Assembly: GCF_000348725.1 (NCBI RefSeq)
Contig: NC_020813.1
Location: 2,463,563 to 2,527,562 of the forward strand
Direction of reading: 5' to 3'
DNA length: 64,000 nt
Source: Pseudobdellovibrio exovorus JSS
Lineage (GTDB): Bacteria > Bdellovibrionota > Bdellovibrionia > Bdellovibrionales > Bdellovibrionaceae
Shown: positions 41,149 through 47,650 of the stretch, piece after piece
How positions within the stretch are numbered: the first letter of the stretch is position 1
Layout of the letters: each line of letters begins with the position of its first letter
Position numbers and translations under genes: made by a program
The notes under the pieces: generated by a model
Told to the model about the DNA's origin: nothing
Seen by the model: only the letters and a program-made list of their open reading frames with translations
The model's database searches: none

Positions 41149-41238
41149 GGAGAGGTGGCCGAGTGGCTGAAGGCGCACGCTTGGAAAGCGTGTTTAGGGT
41201 CAAACCTAACGAGGGTTCGAATCCCTCTCTCTCCGCCA
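41149..41238 (+). tRNA. tRNA-Ser (GGA)
   Basis: 90 nt with encoded CCA. Acceptor GGAGAGG pairs with TCTCTCC; anticodon loop TTGGAAA gives GGA; a long variable arm and GGTTCGAATCC T arm are present. The anticodon decodes UCC/UCU. It is the attachment side of the integrative element. Confidence 0.97.
41230..41238 (+). other. Putative attL in the tRNA 3' end
   Basis: TCTCCGCCA of the tRNA 3' end recurs at 46352-46360, between the last gene of the element and the next chromosomal gene. The match is short (9 bases), so it is a candidate only. Confidence 0.35.
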
Positions 41239-41254
41239 TTATTTTTGATTATTA

Positions 41255-41295
41255 AAACGGGTTTGGGGATTTTTCCTAAACCCGTTTCTTTTTTT
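41255..41295 (+). terminator. Terminator after tRNA-Ser
   Basis: AAACGGGTTT and AAACCCGTTT form a 10-bp stem (41255-41287) followed by CTTTTTTT. Confidence 0.85.
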
Positions 41296-41453
41296 GTGGG
41301 CCATTATTAATTTAATAATTTCGCCTATTTATTAAAAAATCAGGCCCGTCTCAATTTTAGACGGCGGAAAGTTTAATAAAGTTTGACCACCCAAAAGTAA
41401 TCCAGTGGGTGACGGCCCTAAAAAATCCTATGAGTTTTTGAGTGTGAGAAAAT

Positions 41454-41487
41454 AAAAAAACCACCGAGATTGTCGGCGGTTTTTTTC
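41454..41487 (-). terminator. Terminator after the integrase
   Basis: CCACCGA and TCGGCGG (one mismatch) are bracketed by A and T runs. On the minus strand it ends with TTTTTTT, 29 bases past the integrase stop. Confidence 0.75.
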
Positions 41488-41515
41488 GTCTGTGATTTTA
41501 TGAGTAGATTAGATT

Positions 41516-42742
41516 TTATCCGCTTTTTCTGTTTTTCGTGTGGGGCCTCAACTTGTGAGAAACTCCCTTGATGTCTTCTGGTTTTAACTTCGCTGTGTAG
41601 TGTTTTAGTGTCGCATAATCCGCATGGCCTACGAGTTGCTGGACTGTTAAATGTGGAACCCCTGCCGTGAGTAAGTTCATAATGTAAGAGGCCCTTAAAC
41701 TATGAAAGTTCGGCCATAGTTCTTTGCCCTTGGCATTTTTCTCTGGTGTGTATCCCACTTCTTTAAGGGCCGCTCTCACTGCTTGGGCGGCCTTGCCTGA
41801 TTTCCATTCTCTATCACGGGGAAAGAAAAACTCTTTTTCTACTGCCTTGGTTCGTAGTCTGTGGGCGAGTAGGTATTTTCTAATGGCGGTTACATCCACC
41901 ACTCTCTGCTGTCCTGATTTAGTCGGTGTGATTTTTTCGGTTTTCCAGTTGTAAGTGGTCTTTACCACCACATAACTATTCTCTGGATTTTCTAAATGAA
42001 CATCATCTGCGGTAAGAGAAAAAATCTCTCCGCTTCTCATTCCCGTATAGTAAGCAAAATAAAATAGGCTGGCCCACTTGTTGAGTGGGTTCATGTCTTT
42101 ATCATGGTAAAGGTCTATAATTTTCTCCATGACCTCTGGCCGTATCCATTGGACTTGGTGCGGTTCTTCGTCCTTATTTCTTGGAATATAAACATTATGG
42201 GCTGGGTTTAGGTAAAGGCTTGCCATTGGCCCCATAATAAACTTAAAGGCCAATCTTATGTGTCTCATGTAGTGTTTTTTTACTCCATAAGTAAGACACT
42301 TAAACTCTGGCCTGTTCATCATGCTATGAACATGGCTGGGGGATATTTGCCCGATAAATAATTTTTCCCACTGTTTTGTGTATTTGTAAGCGGCGATGGC
42401 TGTCTCAAATGAACCCTCACCCATTGGCTTATGGCTTGTCTGGCTGTCGTCTATTTTTTGCCTAATGTGGGATACATATTTTTTGTAAGCCACATCCCAC
42501 TTAAATTGACCGTCCCGATGTTTTAAGTCGTCTTGACTGAGTTGATAGATAAACCCTTTTCTAATTTGTCGGGCTTCTTGAATGAGTTTAATGTTTCGTT
42601 TTTTCTTCGTCTTAATTTTTCCGTTAATTCGTTTTTGAACCACCACCATGAAACGGCCATTGGCCATTCTAAAAATGTTTTCCTCTAATTTTTCTTTAAC
42701 CATGTCGTGATGGCTGATGGATTTTTCTTTTTCCTCACTCAT
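41516..42742 (-). CDS. int: Tyrosine recombinase / integrase
   Basis: 408 aa phage-type integrase. N-terminal arm-binding region, SAM-like core-binding domain about 70-190, catalytic domain 200-400. Active-site residues: Arg in YTGMRSGEIFSL, HxxR in FHSLRASYIMN, His in VGHADYATLKHY and the nucleophilic Tyr in the last of these. It lies beside the 3' end of tRNA-Ser and reads toward it, the usual arrangement for tRNA-integrating elements. All catalytic residues present, so it may be active. Confidence 0.95.
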   Translation of the reverse strand: MSEEKEKSISHHDMVKEKLEENIFRMANGRFMVVVQKRINGKIKTKKKRNIKLIQEARQIRKGFIYQLSQDDLKHRDGQFKWDVAYKKYVSHIRQKIDDSQTSHKPMGEGSFETAIAAYKYTKQWEKLFIGQISPSHVHSMMNRPEFKCLTYGVKKHYMRHIRLAFKFIMGPMASLYLNPAHNVYIPRNKDEEPHQVQWIRPEVMEKIIDLYHDKDMNPLNKWASLFYFAYYTGMRSGEIFSLTADDVHLENPENSYVVVKTTYNWKTEKITPTKSGQQRVVDVTAIRKYLLAHRLRTKAVEKEFFFPRDREWKSGKAAQAVRAALKEVGYTPEKNAKGKELWPNFHSLRASYIMNLLTAGVPHLTVQQLVGHADYATLKHYTAKLKPEDIKGVSHKLRPHTKNRKSG

Positions 42743-42787
42743 AAAAATCTCCCTCTCTCTTGTCGGTAAAATTATGAAAAGATTGAA

Positions 42788-43357
42788 TTAAGCCGCTCTT
42801 GCGGTTTGGTCTTGCTTCCTTAATTTTGCGAGTAGTTGCCTGTAAAAGTCGGGGTCTAATTTTCTCAATGGTCTGGGGGTGTGATAAATCCAAAACTTTT
42901 CCGTTTTCTCACTCCAACGAGTGGGCGAGTTCTCCAATAGAAAGGAACGGACAAAAGCCATCTCTACAAAAAGCCGTAGGGCCAACTTTTTAAGGTCGTC
43001 TGGATTTAAGTCAGTGGCATTGTCGGGGTCGTAAAATGCCTTATGAAACTCAACGGGAAAAAATACCCCTCTAACTCTCACAATTCTATCAATGTATTCA
43101 CGGTCAAGGTTGTGGGGGAAAACCTCATTAAGGGGTAAGTCTGGGTTGTATCCCGTCCGTGTAGCCTTTAAAAACTCTGGGCTGTCTTCGTGTGGTTTAT
43201 ATGGGATTGGTTTTTTCTTAAATAGTTTCGTTATGGCCTTAAAAATCATCATAGCGGGCCAAATAACAATGGCCAAAAACATGACGATAGGGCCACCAAA
43301 GGCGATGATAAAAGGGATTAAGAAAATTATATTTAAACCTATATCGACACTTGACAT
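42788..43357 (-). CDS. Membrane-anchored protein of the integrative element
   Basis: 189 aa. Residues 7-45 are one or two membrane segments, then a basic stretch and a cytoplasmic domain (YNPDLPLNEVFPHNLDREYI). It lies 45 bases upstream of the integrase in the same direction. No ribosome site precedes the ATG, and the palindrome at 43357-43372 begins at the start codon, suggesting a leaderless or tightly repressed transcript. Function unknown. Confidence 0.7.
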   Translation of the reverse strand: MSSVDIGLNIIFLIPFIIAFGGPIVMFLAIVIWPAMMIFKAITKLFKKKPIPYKPHEDSPEFLKATRTGYNPDLPLNEVFPHNLDREYIDRIVRVRGVFFPVEFHKAFYDPDNATDLNPDDLKKLALRLFVEMAFVRSFLLENSPTRWSEKTEKFWIYHTPRPLRKLDPDFYRQLLAKLRKQDQTARAA

Positions 43358-43372
43358 AGTAAAATAATACTA
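43357..43372. promoter_or_regulatory. Operator copy 1 (short form)
   Basis: TAGTA-AAATAA-TACTA, the inner part of the TATAGTA-N6-TACTATA palindrome, abutting the start codon of the minus-strand membrane protein gene. Confidence 0.6.
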
Positions 43373-43401
43373 CAAAATAACTCATCAAGTCAATTAAAAT
43401 A

Positions 43402-43421
43402 TATAGTATCCTTTTACTATA
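43402..43421. promoter_or_regulatory. Operator copy 2, TATAGTA-N6-TACTATA
   Basis: Perfect 7-bp arms around TCCTTT, 18 bases before the HTH gene's start, overlapping a likely -10 region. Confidence 0.75.
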
Positions 43422-43439
43422 TTGGAATAAGGTAGGATT

Positions 43440-43688
43440 ATGGCACGGAATGAAACGATAGACCTTAAAGGCTTGTATAAAAAGAAACGGAAAAAACTCC
43501 CACGGCTTAAAGTGGCCGAGGCCATTGAGAAAAGCGGCCTAACCTATATGGAAATAGCCGAGCAATTAGGGATGAACTACTACAACAACATAACCAAGTG
43601 GAAAACCGCCGATAATATCAACTTTAAAACCCTTGCGGCCCTTGCCCTTGTTCTTAATTGCCGTATCCGTGACCTTTACGAGGAATAG
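43440..43688 (+). CDS. Small XRE-like HTH regulator of the integrative element
   Basis: 82 aa, strongly basic N-terminus (LYKKKRKKLPRLK). The HTH is KSGLTYMEIAEQLGMNYYNN followed by ITKWKTADNINFKTLAALAL. It is flanked by two operator palindromes that recur elsewhere in the element, so it is the most likely binder and self-repressor. AAGG precedes the ATG. Its last 13 bases overlap the opposite-strand gene. Confidence 0.85.
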   Translation: MARNETIDLKGLYKKKRKKLPRLKVAEAIEKSGLTYMEIAEQLGMNYYNNITKWKTADNINFKTLAALALVLNCRIRDLYEE

Positions 43689-43903
43689 GGAAAATAATTG
43701 TCCATGAGGCTATTAGCGAGTTTATGAATGGCGATAATTTCCCCGTCCTTTAAAGAGTAGTCCCCGTTATAAGCGGTGTAATCATTAGGACTAATTTTTA
43801 TAAAAGCAATTGAATAGGGATAAGATAAAGACCTAACCCTAAATACTATAAAATCATCTTCTCTAAATTGTTCTTCTGGCCAAATGTATTCAAGTCTATT
43901 CAT
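43676..43903 (-). CDS. Small protein of unknown function
   Basis: 75 aa, beta-rich (DDFIVFRVRS, YSIAFIKISPNDYTAYNGDY), no signal. It converges with the HTH regulator with a 13-base overlap. No family recognised and no strong ribosome site. Confidence 0.5.
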   Translation of the reverse strand: MNRLEYIWPEEQFREDDFIVFRVRSLSYPYSIAFIKISPNDYTAYNGDYSLKDGEIIAIHKLANSLMDNYFPYSS

Positions 43904-44038
43904 AAAAGACTAAATGGATTTTTACCTATCATTAAATCTTGATGGCCTAATTATTAGGAAATTAGATTTATAATTTCCTAATAATTATTTTTAAGAGAAA
44001 AACATCAATTTTTGATGATGAGCATTTTTTGAGAGTGA

Positions 44039-44383
44039 TTATTTTTTCTCTACCGTGTCCGTGTTTTTGAAACGAGAGCCGAGCCGTTCTTGTATCAACT
44101 CCCAATTATACTCTGTCGGTTCAGTAAGCCTTACCGTGTGTTTTGAACCCTTATCAAGGGGGTCAATTTTTATAAGGGCCATCCTATTTAATTCCTTGAG
44201 AGCTTTTTGAATAGAGTTGTAGGAGAGCCGAGTAGAAAAGCAGAGATGACCACGGGAAAACTCTATAATCTTTTTCGCCTGTAAATGCGGATTATTCTCC
44301 ACTCTATAACGGAAAAGCAGAAAAACCCTTAAAGCCGTATCTGGCACTACTCCACTGTCTAAAAACCACCCATAAAACTTCAT
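44039..44383 (-). CDS. Winged-helix protein, replication-initiator-like
   Basis: 114 aa from the ATG at 44383, which has GGGGG seven bases upstream; a start at 44458 lacks any. LRVFLLFRYRVENN, then LCFSTRLSYNSIQKALKELNRMALIKI is a winged helix of the type in RepA/DnaD-like initiators and MarR-like proteins. Charged tail. Position beside a structured non-coding region fits a replication or copy-control role, as in integrated plasmids or phage satellites, but this is inference. Confidence 0.65.
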   Translation of the reverse strand: MKFYGWFLDSGVVPDTALRVFLLFRYRVENNPHLQAKKIIEFSRGHLCFSTRLSYNSIQKALKELNRMALIKIDPLDKGSKHTVRLTEPTEYNWELIQERLGSRFKNTDTVEKK

Positions 44384-44489
44384 AAACTTACCCCCTTGGT
44401 TGTTGTATAGGGGATAAATGGAAAACATCATTTTAAATCTATTTTTGGAGTTTTCCATTTAGATAGATGAGTAGGATGGGGGCAGATGG

Positions 44490-44710
44490 TTAAGCCCGAT
44501 TTCGCAAGCAAAAGCCTATTCAAGCGAGTGGAATTAAGCCATAGCGGGGCCGACGGAAAACAGTTGGAACCGTCCCAGTCAGGGGTAAAAATACTGACCG
44601 CAGGAAAACCGCAACACCCAACACTGGGCAGGCTAAATAAGGCGGAAAAGGGCTAATCCTGAATGAGACCGAGCCATAAGACGGGCAGTAATCCGCAGGC
44701 TTGCGAGAGA
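44490..44710 (+). ncRNA. Candidate structured non-coding RNA of the integrative element
   Basis: No open frame, and more GC-rich than its surroundings. TCGCAAGC (44502-44509) pairs with GCTTGCGA (44699-44706), closing a domain of about 205 nt. Inside are GACGG/CCGTC, GTCAG/CTGAC (loop GGGTAAAAATA), CCCA/TGGG with loop ACAC, and GCGGA/TCCGC enclosing GGCT/AGCC. GCCCG (44494) can pair with CGGGC (44682), crossing the closing helix. The A-rich loops lie on the plus strand, the usual sense of an RNA. No known family was recognised. Confidence 0.6.
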
Positions 44711-44717
44711 AAAGTAA

Positions 44718-44737
44718 TATAGTAATTATTTACTATA
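44718..44737. promoter_or_regulatory. Operator copy 3, TATAGTA-N6-TACTATA
   Basis: Perfect 7-bp arms around ATTATT, directly after the structured region. The remaining bases to 44877 are AT-rich with a small CCC TTACGGG hairpin (about 44775) and a half-site TAGTAAAATAA at 44842, but no gene. Confidence 0.7.
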
Positions 44738-44877
44738 TATCTATAATATATATACTATTAAGCCATGTCCCAGCCCTTACGGGAGCCTAAGCCTCTGGAA
44801 AGCTTTTTTAGACCCATTCTAAAAAAATAGATTTAGATAAATAGTAAAATAATAATACAGGTTAAAAACAAGTTATT

Positions 44878-45087
44878 ATGAATGAATTATTAGCCCGTAG
44901 TGTGTTCTATTTAGAAAATATGGGAAAGGTTGGCCGTCCTAAAAAGAAAATTACTCATTTTATTGATTTGGTTTTTTGTTGTTTCTTGATTTCCGTTCTC
45001 GTCCTTATCTTATTCCCTACCCCATTGACCTTAACGGTCGTGGGGCTTTTGTGGGGAATTGGCGAGGTTGCCAGTGCTTTTAAATAA
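44878..45087 (+). CDS. Small membrane protein with AT-hook-like N-terminus
   Basis: 69 aa. A basic VGRPKKK motif precedes a hydrophobic stretch of about 40 residues that can form two membrane segments. No good ribosome site for the first ATG; an in-frame ATG 14 codons later is an alternative. First of three genes in a row ending with an M23 peptidase. Confidence 0.6.
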   Translation: MNELLARSVFYLENMGKVGRPKKKITHFIDLVFCCFLISVLVLILFPTPLTLTVVGLLWGIGEVASAFK

Positions 45088-45355
45088 TTTCCGTCCTGAT
45101 AATGATGACCGCTTTTATTTTTTCTACCGCTTTATTATGCGGTCGTGGTTTTTATTTTTGTCCCTGATTTTTTTAATCCCTGCTTTGGGTCTTTTAGGCC
45201 GTTCAATAATGGGGGAACAATTCATAACCCTGTGCGGTGTATTTGTTCTTATTCTGGCCGTGGATTTTTTGAGTGTGTGGATAAAGGCTTATCCGCTAAT
45301 CAAGGAACAGGAACGGATAGAATGGGAAAATAACGGGAGAAAGAATACTTATTAG
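45059..45355 (+). CDS. Small membrane protein
   Basis: 98 aa if it starts at TTG 45059, 72 aa from the ATG at 45137. Two membrane segments (WFLFLSLIFLIPALGLLG and FITLCGVFVLILAVDFLSV), then a charged tail. It overlaps the preceding small membrane protein gene. No family recognised; size and topology are holin-like, which is inference only. Confidence 0.6.
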   Translation: MARLPVLLNNFRPDNDDRFYFFYRFIMRSWFLFLSLIFLIPALGLLGRSIMGEQFITLCGVFVLILAVDFLSVWIKAYPLIKEQERIEWENNGRKNTY

Positions 45356-45387
45356 GAAAACTCTTTGAATATAATAAAATCATACTA

Positions 45388-45407
45388 TATAGTATTATCT
45401 TACTATA
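45388..45407. promoter_or_regulatory. Operator copy 4, TATAGTA-N6-TACTATA
   Basis: Perfect 7-bp arms around TTATCT, 18 bases before the GTG start of the M23 peptidase gene, the same distance as copy 2 from its gene. Confidence 0.75.
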
Positions 45408-45424
45408 TAAGATTGAGGCTTTCA

Positions 45425-46234
45425 GTGAAAAAACGATGGTTGATTATTAGCAGTTTTATTTTACTTCTTCTAAGCACTTCTGGTTTTATTTCTTATTTCA
45501 TTTATCCATCTGCTTTTTGGAATTTCCGCATTCAATATCTGTTAAAGGATTGTCAGTATTCTTCATCACCTTGCGATAAAAATGAGTATTGTATTCAGTT
45601 TAACCCAAAACAAGGTAAGTGTTTTCCTAAGTCCAATTTATCTCCTGAAATTATTTTTCCCCGTGACTTGAATACTCCAACGGTATGTTCTCAGGGAAAT
45701 CTAACCGGAGAAAATAGAACCCATAGTTATTTGAATACGGGTTATGCTGTGGATTTATCTACTCCACCCACTCATAAAAATGCCGAAATTAGAGCCGTAT
45801 TTAATGGCAAGATTATGACCCATGTTGGGTGTGACAACAAAGACGGCGAAAATTTTAACAACGATACTTGTGGACAAGGTTTTGGAAACTGGATTGCCTT
45901 ATTTGATGATAGTTCTAACCTGATTGCTTTTTATGCCCATCTCCGTAGCCATAATGTTAAAAGTGGAGAGGTCGTAAAAGTTGGGCAAGTGATTGGCGAG
46001 GAGGGAAAAACGGGAGCGGCTGGACATAGGCATTTACATTTTAGTATTCATAACAATTTATTTAAAATTACCCCCGATGATATGAAAAAACATGGGGCTT
46101 GGTTGCCGCCGAGCATTCCCTTTAGAGTGAAAGTCATTGGGAGTGATGGCAAGCCCGTAGAAAAATCAGTGGATGAGTTGCCCTGCGAGGATAGTAATGA
46201 CCTTAGTCGTCCGCCGTTTTATGGGGCTGAATAA
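45425..46234 (+). CDS. Membrane-anchored M23 family metallopeptidase
   Basis: 269 aa from GTG 45425 (TTGAGG six bases upstream); a longer frame from 45365 would cross the operator and is rejected. N-terminal anchor WLIISSFILLLLSTSGF. M23/LytM motifs: THSYLNTGYAVDLS (HxxxD-type), YAHLRSH and HRHLHFSI (HxH), so zinc ligands are complete. Two Cys pairs before the domain (DCQYSSSPCDKNEYCIQF). It should cut peptidoglycan cross-links outside the inner membrane. Last gene of the element. Confidence 0.88.
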   Translation: MKKRWLIISSFILLLLSTSGFISYFIYPSAFWNFRIQYLLKDCQYSSSPCDKNEYCIQFNPKQGKCFPKSNLSPEIIFPRDLNTPTVCSQGNLTGENRTHSYLNTGYAVDLSTPPTHKNAEIRAVFNGKIMTHVGCDNKDGENFNNDTCGQGFGNWIALFDDSSNLIAFYAHLRSHNVKSGEVVKVGQVIGEEGKTGAAGHRHLHFSIHNNLFKITPDDMKKHGAWLPPSIPFRVKVIGSDGKPVEKSVDELPCEDSNDLSRPPFYGAE

Positions 46235-46351
46235 ATTTTTGTAACGGAATTTAATAATGGGATGTGCTACTTTTGTCACCCAGATATTTTTGTAATGACT
46301 TAACTGTCTGACATAACTACGGAAAATTGTTTTTTAATATTATTAAAATCA

Positions 46352-46360
46352 TCTCCGCCA
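46352..46360 (+). other. Putative attR
   Basis: TCTCCGCCA, identical to the 3' end of tRNA-Ser, located between the M23 peptidase gene and the next gene. It would make the element about 5.1 kb. Nine bases can occur by chance, so confidence is limited. Confidence 0.35.
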
Positions 46361-46404: not shown

Positions 46405-47478
46405 TTATTTATTATCGTTTCTTGATTCGTTATTCAGCTTTGCCGTTTCAATGCCCCTTTTAATCATAAAATCGATATCTTCATTTGTATTTGTTACGTC
46501 AATTTCAATATGAGGAAATCTTTCTTTAAAAACCCTGAAAACCTCATCCACGAATGCCTGACCAACAGTTTTAATGCCTTTGAAATCTAGGATAATATGA
46601 TTAAATTTTTCCAAACCTAGCATGATTCGTTTGGCCTGCGATCTTGAAACAAAATGATCTTCATTCGACAGACTTAAAGAAACCAAAATATGTGTCCGAT
46701 CAAAAGCCATAGTTTCTGGGTTTTGATATTTTTCGAAAACATTTCTTAATCTTCTATCCGAGGTCGTATCAATTTCAAACTGTACTACAGTGGAATAGTT
46801 TGATGTGTTTTTTTTCTCTTGAACAAACCAATCTTCTTGGGTGTTATCTCGCAAATAAAATATCCCATTGGCTAAAATTTCAAAGCAATCTACTGCCCTT
46901 GATGTGAAAAAAATTCCTTCGCCTGAGTGTCGGCTCTTGTCAGTTGTTAGTTTCCCTTTTGAAAGTTGCAACACACTTTCTCGTTCGTCATCTAAACCAA
47001 ATGCATCTTTAATTTTTTTAAAAATTCCCACTCCGTTATCTGAAATTGAAAAGATAAGTTTATTCCCTTTTTTTTCTGACGCGATAATAACTCGCGAGCC
47101 CTCTGAGTGATCTTTTGCGTTATTCACCATCTCGGTAAAGCTGTAATAGCAGATCTCCTCAATATTCGGCTTCAATTTAGTCGCAATAGAGCTGAACTCT
47201 TTCTGCCAGATATCGGACTCAGACAAGTCTTCTGTTATTTTAAAAGATATGACTTTATTAAAGGATTCTTTTAAAAAATACTGGCTGGTATTTGTAACAC
47301 CAATTTTTTCAATTTTATCAGCTTTGATCAAAGTATTCAGATGCCGGTGCACAGTAGTCCTTGTGACACCAAATTCGGCCATTGTTAAATTCACAATATC
47401 ATGCGGATGAGCTTCGACATGAGCCAAGAGGTACTGCTTTATTTCTTCGCCTCTGTTAGGCTTTGAACTTGAAGTTAT
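46405..47478 (-). CDS. HTH/HATPase/STAS-like (DUF4325) regulator
   Basis: 340 aa counted from TTG 47427, but 17 additional in-frame codons reach an ATA at 47478 next to a near-perfect AAGGAGG, so the true start is probably there. Winged HTH: EFGVTRTTVHRHLNTLIKAD. GHKL ATPase: FTEMVNNAKDHSEG (N), SDNGVGIF (G1), HSGEGIFFTS (G2). The C-terminal part (SRSQAKRIMLGLEKFNHIIL, then VGQAFVDEVFRVF) is DUF4325, a STAS-like fold. No phospho-His domain, so it resembles anti-sigma/partner-switch ATPases fused to their own DNA-binding and antagonist-like domains. Confidence 0.88.
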   Translation of the reverse strand: MTSSSKPNRGEEIKQYLLAHVEAHPHDIVNLTMAEFGVTRTTVHRHLNTLIKADKIEKIGVTNTSQYFLKESFNKVISFKITEDLSESDIWQKEFSSIATKLKPNIEEICYYSFTEMVNNAKDHSEGSRVIIASEKKGNKLIFSISDNGVGIFKKIKDAFGLDDERESVLQLSKGKLTTDKSRHSGEGIFFTSRAVDCFEILANGIFYLRDNTQEDWFVQEKKNTSNYSTVVQFEIDTTSDRRLRNVFEKYQNPETMAFDRTHILVSLSLSNEDHFVSRSQAKRIMLGLEKFNHIILDFKGIKTVGQAFVDEVFRVFKERFPHIEIDVTNTNEDIDFMIKRGIETAKLNNESRNDNK

Positions 47479-47575
47479 AACTCCTCCTTTTTACACACTA
47501 TAACTATGTAAAAATATGGTTATAACTATTACATATTATGTTATAACTATCAAATATAATAGTTATAACTATTAT
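47473..47575. promoter_or_regulatory. Tandem TTATAACTAT repeats upstream of the HTH/ATPase gene
   Basis: AGTTATAACT at 47473 and 47561 is a perfect 10-bp palindrome; close copies of TTATAACTAT lie at 47499, 47520 and 47541. Spacing is 21-22 bp for four of the five copies, i.e. two helical turns. Probable operators for the regulator's own HTH domain. Confidence 0.7.
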
Positions 47576-47650
47576 ATTTGTCTTTAAAACGAATATAGTT
47601 GATTTAGAGTTATATTAGAACTCATTAGTCTAGTTATTACTTTCTTCCCA

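Follow-up and report, generated by a model that had tools for sequence, protein, structure and literature searches.

GOLLD and ROOL are large structured RNAs of phages and mobile elements, whose roles are unclear, and OLE RNA, a large structured RNA of bacteria, goes together with the membrane protein OapA. Among plasmids, those of the ColE1 type make use of an RNA pre-primer and replicate without the need of a Rep protein (PMC8683028). The locus treated here lies in an integrative element of Pseudobdellovibrio exovorus JSS, inside the window (the whole stretch of DNA that was analysed, 64,000 nucleotides), and consists of a structured RNA of about 325 nt on the plus strand (44478–44802, limits set by conservation across the homologues).

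As in a ColE1-type replicon with its RNA II pre-primer, a structured RNA is present in a mobile element devoid of an initiator of the RepX type (the protein that stands in the place of the RNA in sister elements), and a primer role here would follow by analogy; the elements with the RNA have no RepX, but they do carry a winged-helix (WH) protein with no assigned role. The RNA is shorter than the RNA II of ColE1 (about 550 nt), the element is integrative, and a sequence match to plasmids was not found; moreover, when the minus strand of the 3′ domain was scanned for a promoter like that of the antisense RNA I, the scores were not above those of shuffles. The likeness to OLE lies in the size and structure of the RNA, again a bacterial one, and in the gene for a small membrane protein close to most of its copies, whereas here these genes (memA and memB) also occur without the RNA, the RNA also occurs without them, and the setting is one of mobile elements. 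With GOLLD and ROOL it shares the condition of a large orphan structured RNA of mobile DNA, although those two are about twice as long; the lack of any Rfam match separates it from all three. Since large orphan RNAs are already known from mobile elements, the RNA is a new family, with no relative in Rfam, within a known setting; a large structured RNA outside all the catalogued families is uncommon.

The RNA family and its fold

The RNA sequence is found once in the 2.66-Mb single-contig source genome. Among 369 genomes of the phylum, BLAST gave three clear relatives (L003, L004 and L005, at 86%, 76% and 75%), and the same three came back from an exact-pattern search of a second genome collection, in MAGs labelled Bdellovibrionaceae, Bdellovibrionota and Proteobacteria. 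The covariance model R1, built from these three and the RNA of the window, added two copies, in G197 (72 bits, E 6e-18) and in G166 (38 bits, E 8e-8). The family numbers six copies, all in genomes of the Bdellovibrionota type and 311–326 nt long, and a second model, built from all six, brought no further convincing copies. Weak model matches in G276, G190, G287, G220, G173 and G072 were rejected as copies of the RNA, the one in G190 (L072) appearing to be situated within a coding sequence.

When the window was compared with Rfam 15 at the gathering cut-off, a tRNA alone was matched and the RNA region was left unmatched; with E values up to 10, the RNA region gave only chance-level matches, and with E up to 1, nothing lay over the RNA in four loci with homologues. 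A DNA search of phage and plasmid collections with the RNA returned short chance matches, the best among 72,556 plasmids being a chance match of 43 bases (E 0.4), with no homology to a known plasmid origin; motif and protein searches of viral contigs gave no relative of the RNA or of its element, two single pattern matches (L035, L085) being unlike the homologues on inspection. A search of a library of papers gave none on the RNA or its element. The first-pass annotation had claimed for the integrative element a structured RNA not described before, distinct from RNase P RNA, tmRNA, 6S RNA and group I/II introns, and had proposed a check against Rfam and a test of covariation; the Rfam comparisons, in which the cut-offs of all these families were left unreached, bear this description out, as do the pairing data that follow.

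The folding energy is weak (z −1.54, with 16 of 200 shuffles folding equally well), and the case for structure therefore rests on covariation in the homologues. There the structure goes beyond chance. In an unfitted MAFFT alignment of four sequences, 96.5% of the cells pair and 10 base pairs have changed on both sides, against 0–2 in slid controls, in which the pairing partners are shifted by 1–3 columns. In the six-sequence alignment, which was fitted to the R1 structure and so leans towards it, 23 of the 42 R1 pairs are double-changed, against 2–7 in the slid controls; in the same structure-fitted alignment, once the pseudoknot and the terminal helix CGAGCC/GGCUUG, both of which came from an exhaustive search for further stacks, have been added, the count is 31 of 54, against 3–9. 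The paired cells contain 36 G-U against 6 A-C combinations, which favours the plus strand as the RNA strand, in a structure built with G-U allowed.

The modelled core (44478–44708, plus strand) begins with the hairpin P0 (44480–44483/44494–44497), whose loop AUGGU (44486–44490) forms a pseudoknot with GCCAU (44538–44542), replaced by CUGUC/GGCAG in the G166 copy (L055); the first-pass annotation had listed one potential pseudoknot, and the presence of a pseudoknot is confirmed. There follow P2 (44498–44505/44528–44535), P3 (44544–44553/44564–44573) and P4 (44578–44582/44594–44598), then P6 (44601–44605/44657–44661), which encloses P7 (44609–44612/44642–44645) and P5 (44617–44620/44625–44628), and lastly P9, in which CGAGCC (44670–44675) pairs locally with GGCUUG (44698–44703), and P8 within it (44682–44684/44693–44695); all these helices are those of the covariation model. 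In the G197 copy (L061), P9 covaries to GGUUA/UGACC. An alternative long-range pairing of AAGCC..GCGG with CCGC..GGCUU, as drawn by RNAalifold, was replaced by the local P8 and P9 and the pseudoknot, because these hold in L055 and L061 too. The 3′ domain (44704–44802, plus strand), an AT-rich hairpin region with a conserved block ending in CUCUGGAAA, is conserved in sequence, yet its single-sequence folds disagree.

Some earlier descriptions of the locus stand after these comparisons and others have to be changed. A compact domain with several stems and A-rich loops on the plus strand is indeed found, and it is GC-rich in an AT-rich element (G+C 0.53 in the core, about 0.33–0.44 in the element). 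The limits first given, a 205-nt domain within 44490–44710, are too narrow for the conserved unit, and the closing helix then drawn (CGCAAGC with GCTTGCG, 7 bp in the window) keeps 5 of its 7 pairs in L004 and L005, its 3′ strand being invariant. Nor is the region free of open frames, as had been said: the core contains one of 56 aa (44486–44656). Among the homologues, L003, the closest, alone preserves it whole; stops break it up in L004 and L005, and L055 and L068 lack it. A reading as a CsrA sponge, based on GGA motifs in the loops, was dropped on inspection, the homologues not keeping the motifs.

RNA or RepX in related elements

The element (41239–46360, 5.1 kb) is integrated at a tRNA-Ser gene (gga; 41149–41238, plus strand, with the attL core at 41230–41238). 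Its left part contains a tyrosine integrase (41516–42742, minus; PF00589, E 2.6e-20), two core proteins with no function assigned, orf189 (42788–43357, minus) and orf75 (43676–43903, minus), a Cro/C1-type HTH protein (43440–43688, plus; PF13443, E 3.5e-6), and the WH protein (44039–44458, minus, with its probable true start near 44383), which resembles the wHTH domains of initiators and of regulators. The predicted structure of the WH protein has a mean pLDDT of 63, with residues 31–110 mostly at 69–87, and a fold search with it returned, alongside many further wHTH proteins, the plasmid initiators 4pql, 4pt7 and 5kbj (Z about 8); these matches to a predicted model therefore do not decide on a function, that of replication initiator or any other.

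Between the divergent WH gene and the RNA lies an inverted repeat, TAAATGGA..TCCATTTA (44415–44461), which is likely to be an operator or a pair of promoters at the divergent WH promoter. It was located in the window, L034, L053–L056, L068, L099 and L101–L103, and in nearly all the elements having it the total length of TAAATGG..CCATTTA is 25, 31–32 or 47 bases. Its right half-site, CCATTTA (44455–44461), precedes the RNA by 15–16 nt in each of the six homologues and also stands before RepX in L050–L052, and it is therefore probably, as judged from its sequence context, a promoter or operator element.

Related elements were found by searches with the WH protein and then with RepX, a protein of 260–300 aa that resembles replication initiators of the HTH_36 type. 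A second element of the same genome (L050, about 2.446–2.452 Mb, in tRNA-Ser(gct)) has RepX in the place of the RNA, and this best-scoring version matches PF13730 HTH_36 (E 3.9e-11), phrog_270 (E 8.4e-8) and the O-like phrog_391 (E 3.2e-7), the last two being phage replication-initiation families; the distant versions (L053, L056) have weak scores, or none, against replication families, and a sequence search of the PDB with RepX gave only weak HTH matches. A part for RepX in replication is thus suggested by its HTH homology. In L050, L051 and L052 it lies exactly between the inverted repeat and memA, that is, in the slot which the RNA occupies in the window, upstream of memA (44920–45087, plus strand) and memB (45074–45355, plus strand); both of these genes follow RepX in L050 and L052, and L051 shows the start of memA before its contig ends. 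The integration site is a tRNA-Ser gene in the window, L050 and L051, and in G166 the element lies beside the tmRNA gene.

In the elements at hand, the RNA and RepX exclude each other. Eleven elements have RepX and no RNA (L050–L054, L056 and L099–L103), six loci have the RNA and no RepX, and none of the 17, several of which are on short contigs, has both. Under random assortment of the 17, a perfect separation would have a probability of 1/12376, or of 1/364 when the RNA side is restricted to its three best-delimited elements, in both cases with elements that are not independent of one another. Nor is the separation a matter of a single lineage. A tree was built for 15 elements, all of which have the WH protein, from the shared core genes WH, orf189 and orf75. 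On it, four changes between RNA and RepX are required, and the grouping of all the RNA elements in one clade is rejected; the size of the statistic in this clade test needs care, because of one row with a very long branch and two that are less than half filled. The nearest RepX elements on the tree are L050–L052 (for the window and for L034), L053 and L054 (for L055), and L103 (for L068). RepX was sought throughout the RNA-carrying genomes G166, G197 and G117 and not found, so that there it is not simply supplied by another copy; G000, G160 and G192 each combine one RNA element with one RepX element, and in them RepX could act in trans.

Possible roles of the RNA

Such a strict alternation suggests that the RNA and RepX serve the same need, and as RepX resembles a replication initiator, the simplest reading would be that the RNA starts or licenses replication. 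To the reading, drawn from sequence comparison, in which the RNA takes over from RepX the start or control of replication of the excised element, we give a probability of about 0.4. Transcription of a noncoding RNA of some 325 nt would begin in the divergent promoter region (about 44415–44470) and proceed rightwards; the RNA would have a 5′ domain with a pseudoknot, a central part of several helices and a 3′ domain, and would fill the functional place held in sister elements by RepX with its HTH_36 domain. It would then start or license the replication of the excised circle without RepX, and could do so as (i) a structured primer, (ii) the RNA of an R-loop, or (iii) a scaffold recruiting host replication factors, with the WH protein as its possible partner or regulator. 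The functions first floated for the locus were replication, packaging and control of the downstream genes: replication is favoured by the context, given the alternation of the RNA with a protein that resembles initiators, packaging has found no support, and the control of downstream genes is possible, but weakened by the homologue without those genes.

That elements otherwise related have either the RNA or a protein like an initiator gives a direct hint of function, and one that can be tested. Should the exchange with RepX stem from a shared function, this would be a new replicon type, and, if confirmed, a replication system beyond the gamma-proteobacterial ColE1 group in which an RNA stands in for the initiator protein, as well as a natural case of RNA and protein swapping one job. 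The wider proposal would be that integrative elements of Bdellovibrionota make up a new replicon class, with an initiator protein and a pseudoknotted RNA as interchangeable modules that were exchanged several times in evolution, the RNA starting the replication of the excised element; we put this forward tentatively, and regard it as rather doubtful.

Other roles have to be weighed against replication, and the copies differ in their surroundings. In G197 (L068, G197:C108) the element has a DNA methylase-like protein, and the RNA stands free at the element end, past the 3′ end of that gene and convergent with it, with no mem genes downstream; in the sister elements, in turn, the slot has other contents. 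Both facts, together with the precedent of the large structured RNAs OLE, GOLLD and ROOL in phages and mobile elements, would suit a noncoding RNA acting in trans or carried as cargo (such as a regulator, a weapon used on rival elements, or a protein scaffold), which would share the promoter-proximal slot of RepX by chance; this account is possible without being probable, as a strict exclusion of RepX over about four exchanges would not be expected of it. The same G197 copy bears on the reading of the RNA as a structured 5′ leader, a riboswitch or a protein-binding leader, that controls memA and memB. Five of the six copies have mem genes after the RNA on the same strand, and G117 retains the RNA together with memA and memB, the remaining genes of the element not having been found there, a point which also counts against replication, since it suggests another role or a remnant. 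A leader in cis, however, would always be upstream of the gene it regulates, and the copy in G197 abuts the end of a methylase gene; furthermore, in L050 and L052 memA and memB come after RepX and no RNA is present, and L053 and L054 have memB but not the RNA, all of which makes a leader function unlikely.

That the conserved block works as DNA (a replication origin, or a site of packaging or transfer, whose strands would fold when single-stranded) could be argued from its position next to the inverted repeat, an AT-rich tract and the WH protein. We consider it very improbable: the excess of G-U over A-C combinations speaks for an RNA of the plus strand, the half-site CCATTTA at its fixed distance resembles a promoter element, and no iterons were found, an origin with iterons having been named in the first-pass annotation as a finding that would speak against an RNA. 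Of all these readings, a replacement of RepX by the RNA in replication is the one that we favour, without holding it to be more likely than not.

The right side of the element

Downstream of the RNA, the stop of memA overlaps the start of memB. The product of memA, a small membrane-like protein of 55 aa with a basic N-terminus, begins with the motif GRPKKK, which is AT-hook-like or simply basic, and continues with hydrophobic stretches; no clear Shine-Dalgarno sequence is seen ahead of the gene. That of memB is a membrane-like protein of 93 aa. In L032 (G192:C86, 562–857) a deletion across the junction of memA and memB damages both, and the RNA upstream of them is well conserved. The next gene, a probable cargo (45365–46234, plus strand), encodes an M23 peptidase (PF01551, E 3.2e-14), that is, a peptidoglycan hydrolase, which deserves mention in a group that includes predatory bacteria.

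The element would end at the probable attR core TCTCCGCCA (46352–46360), the sibling L050 repeating CTCTCCGCCA at its far end. Just outside it (46405–47584) a protein is encoded with matches to HTH, HATPase and the STAS-like DUF4325, and a 43-nt tandem repeat, imperfect and rich in TATAACTAT, lies upstream of this gene (47499–47584).
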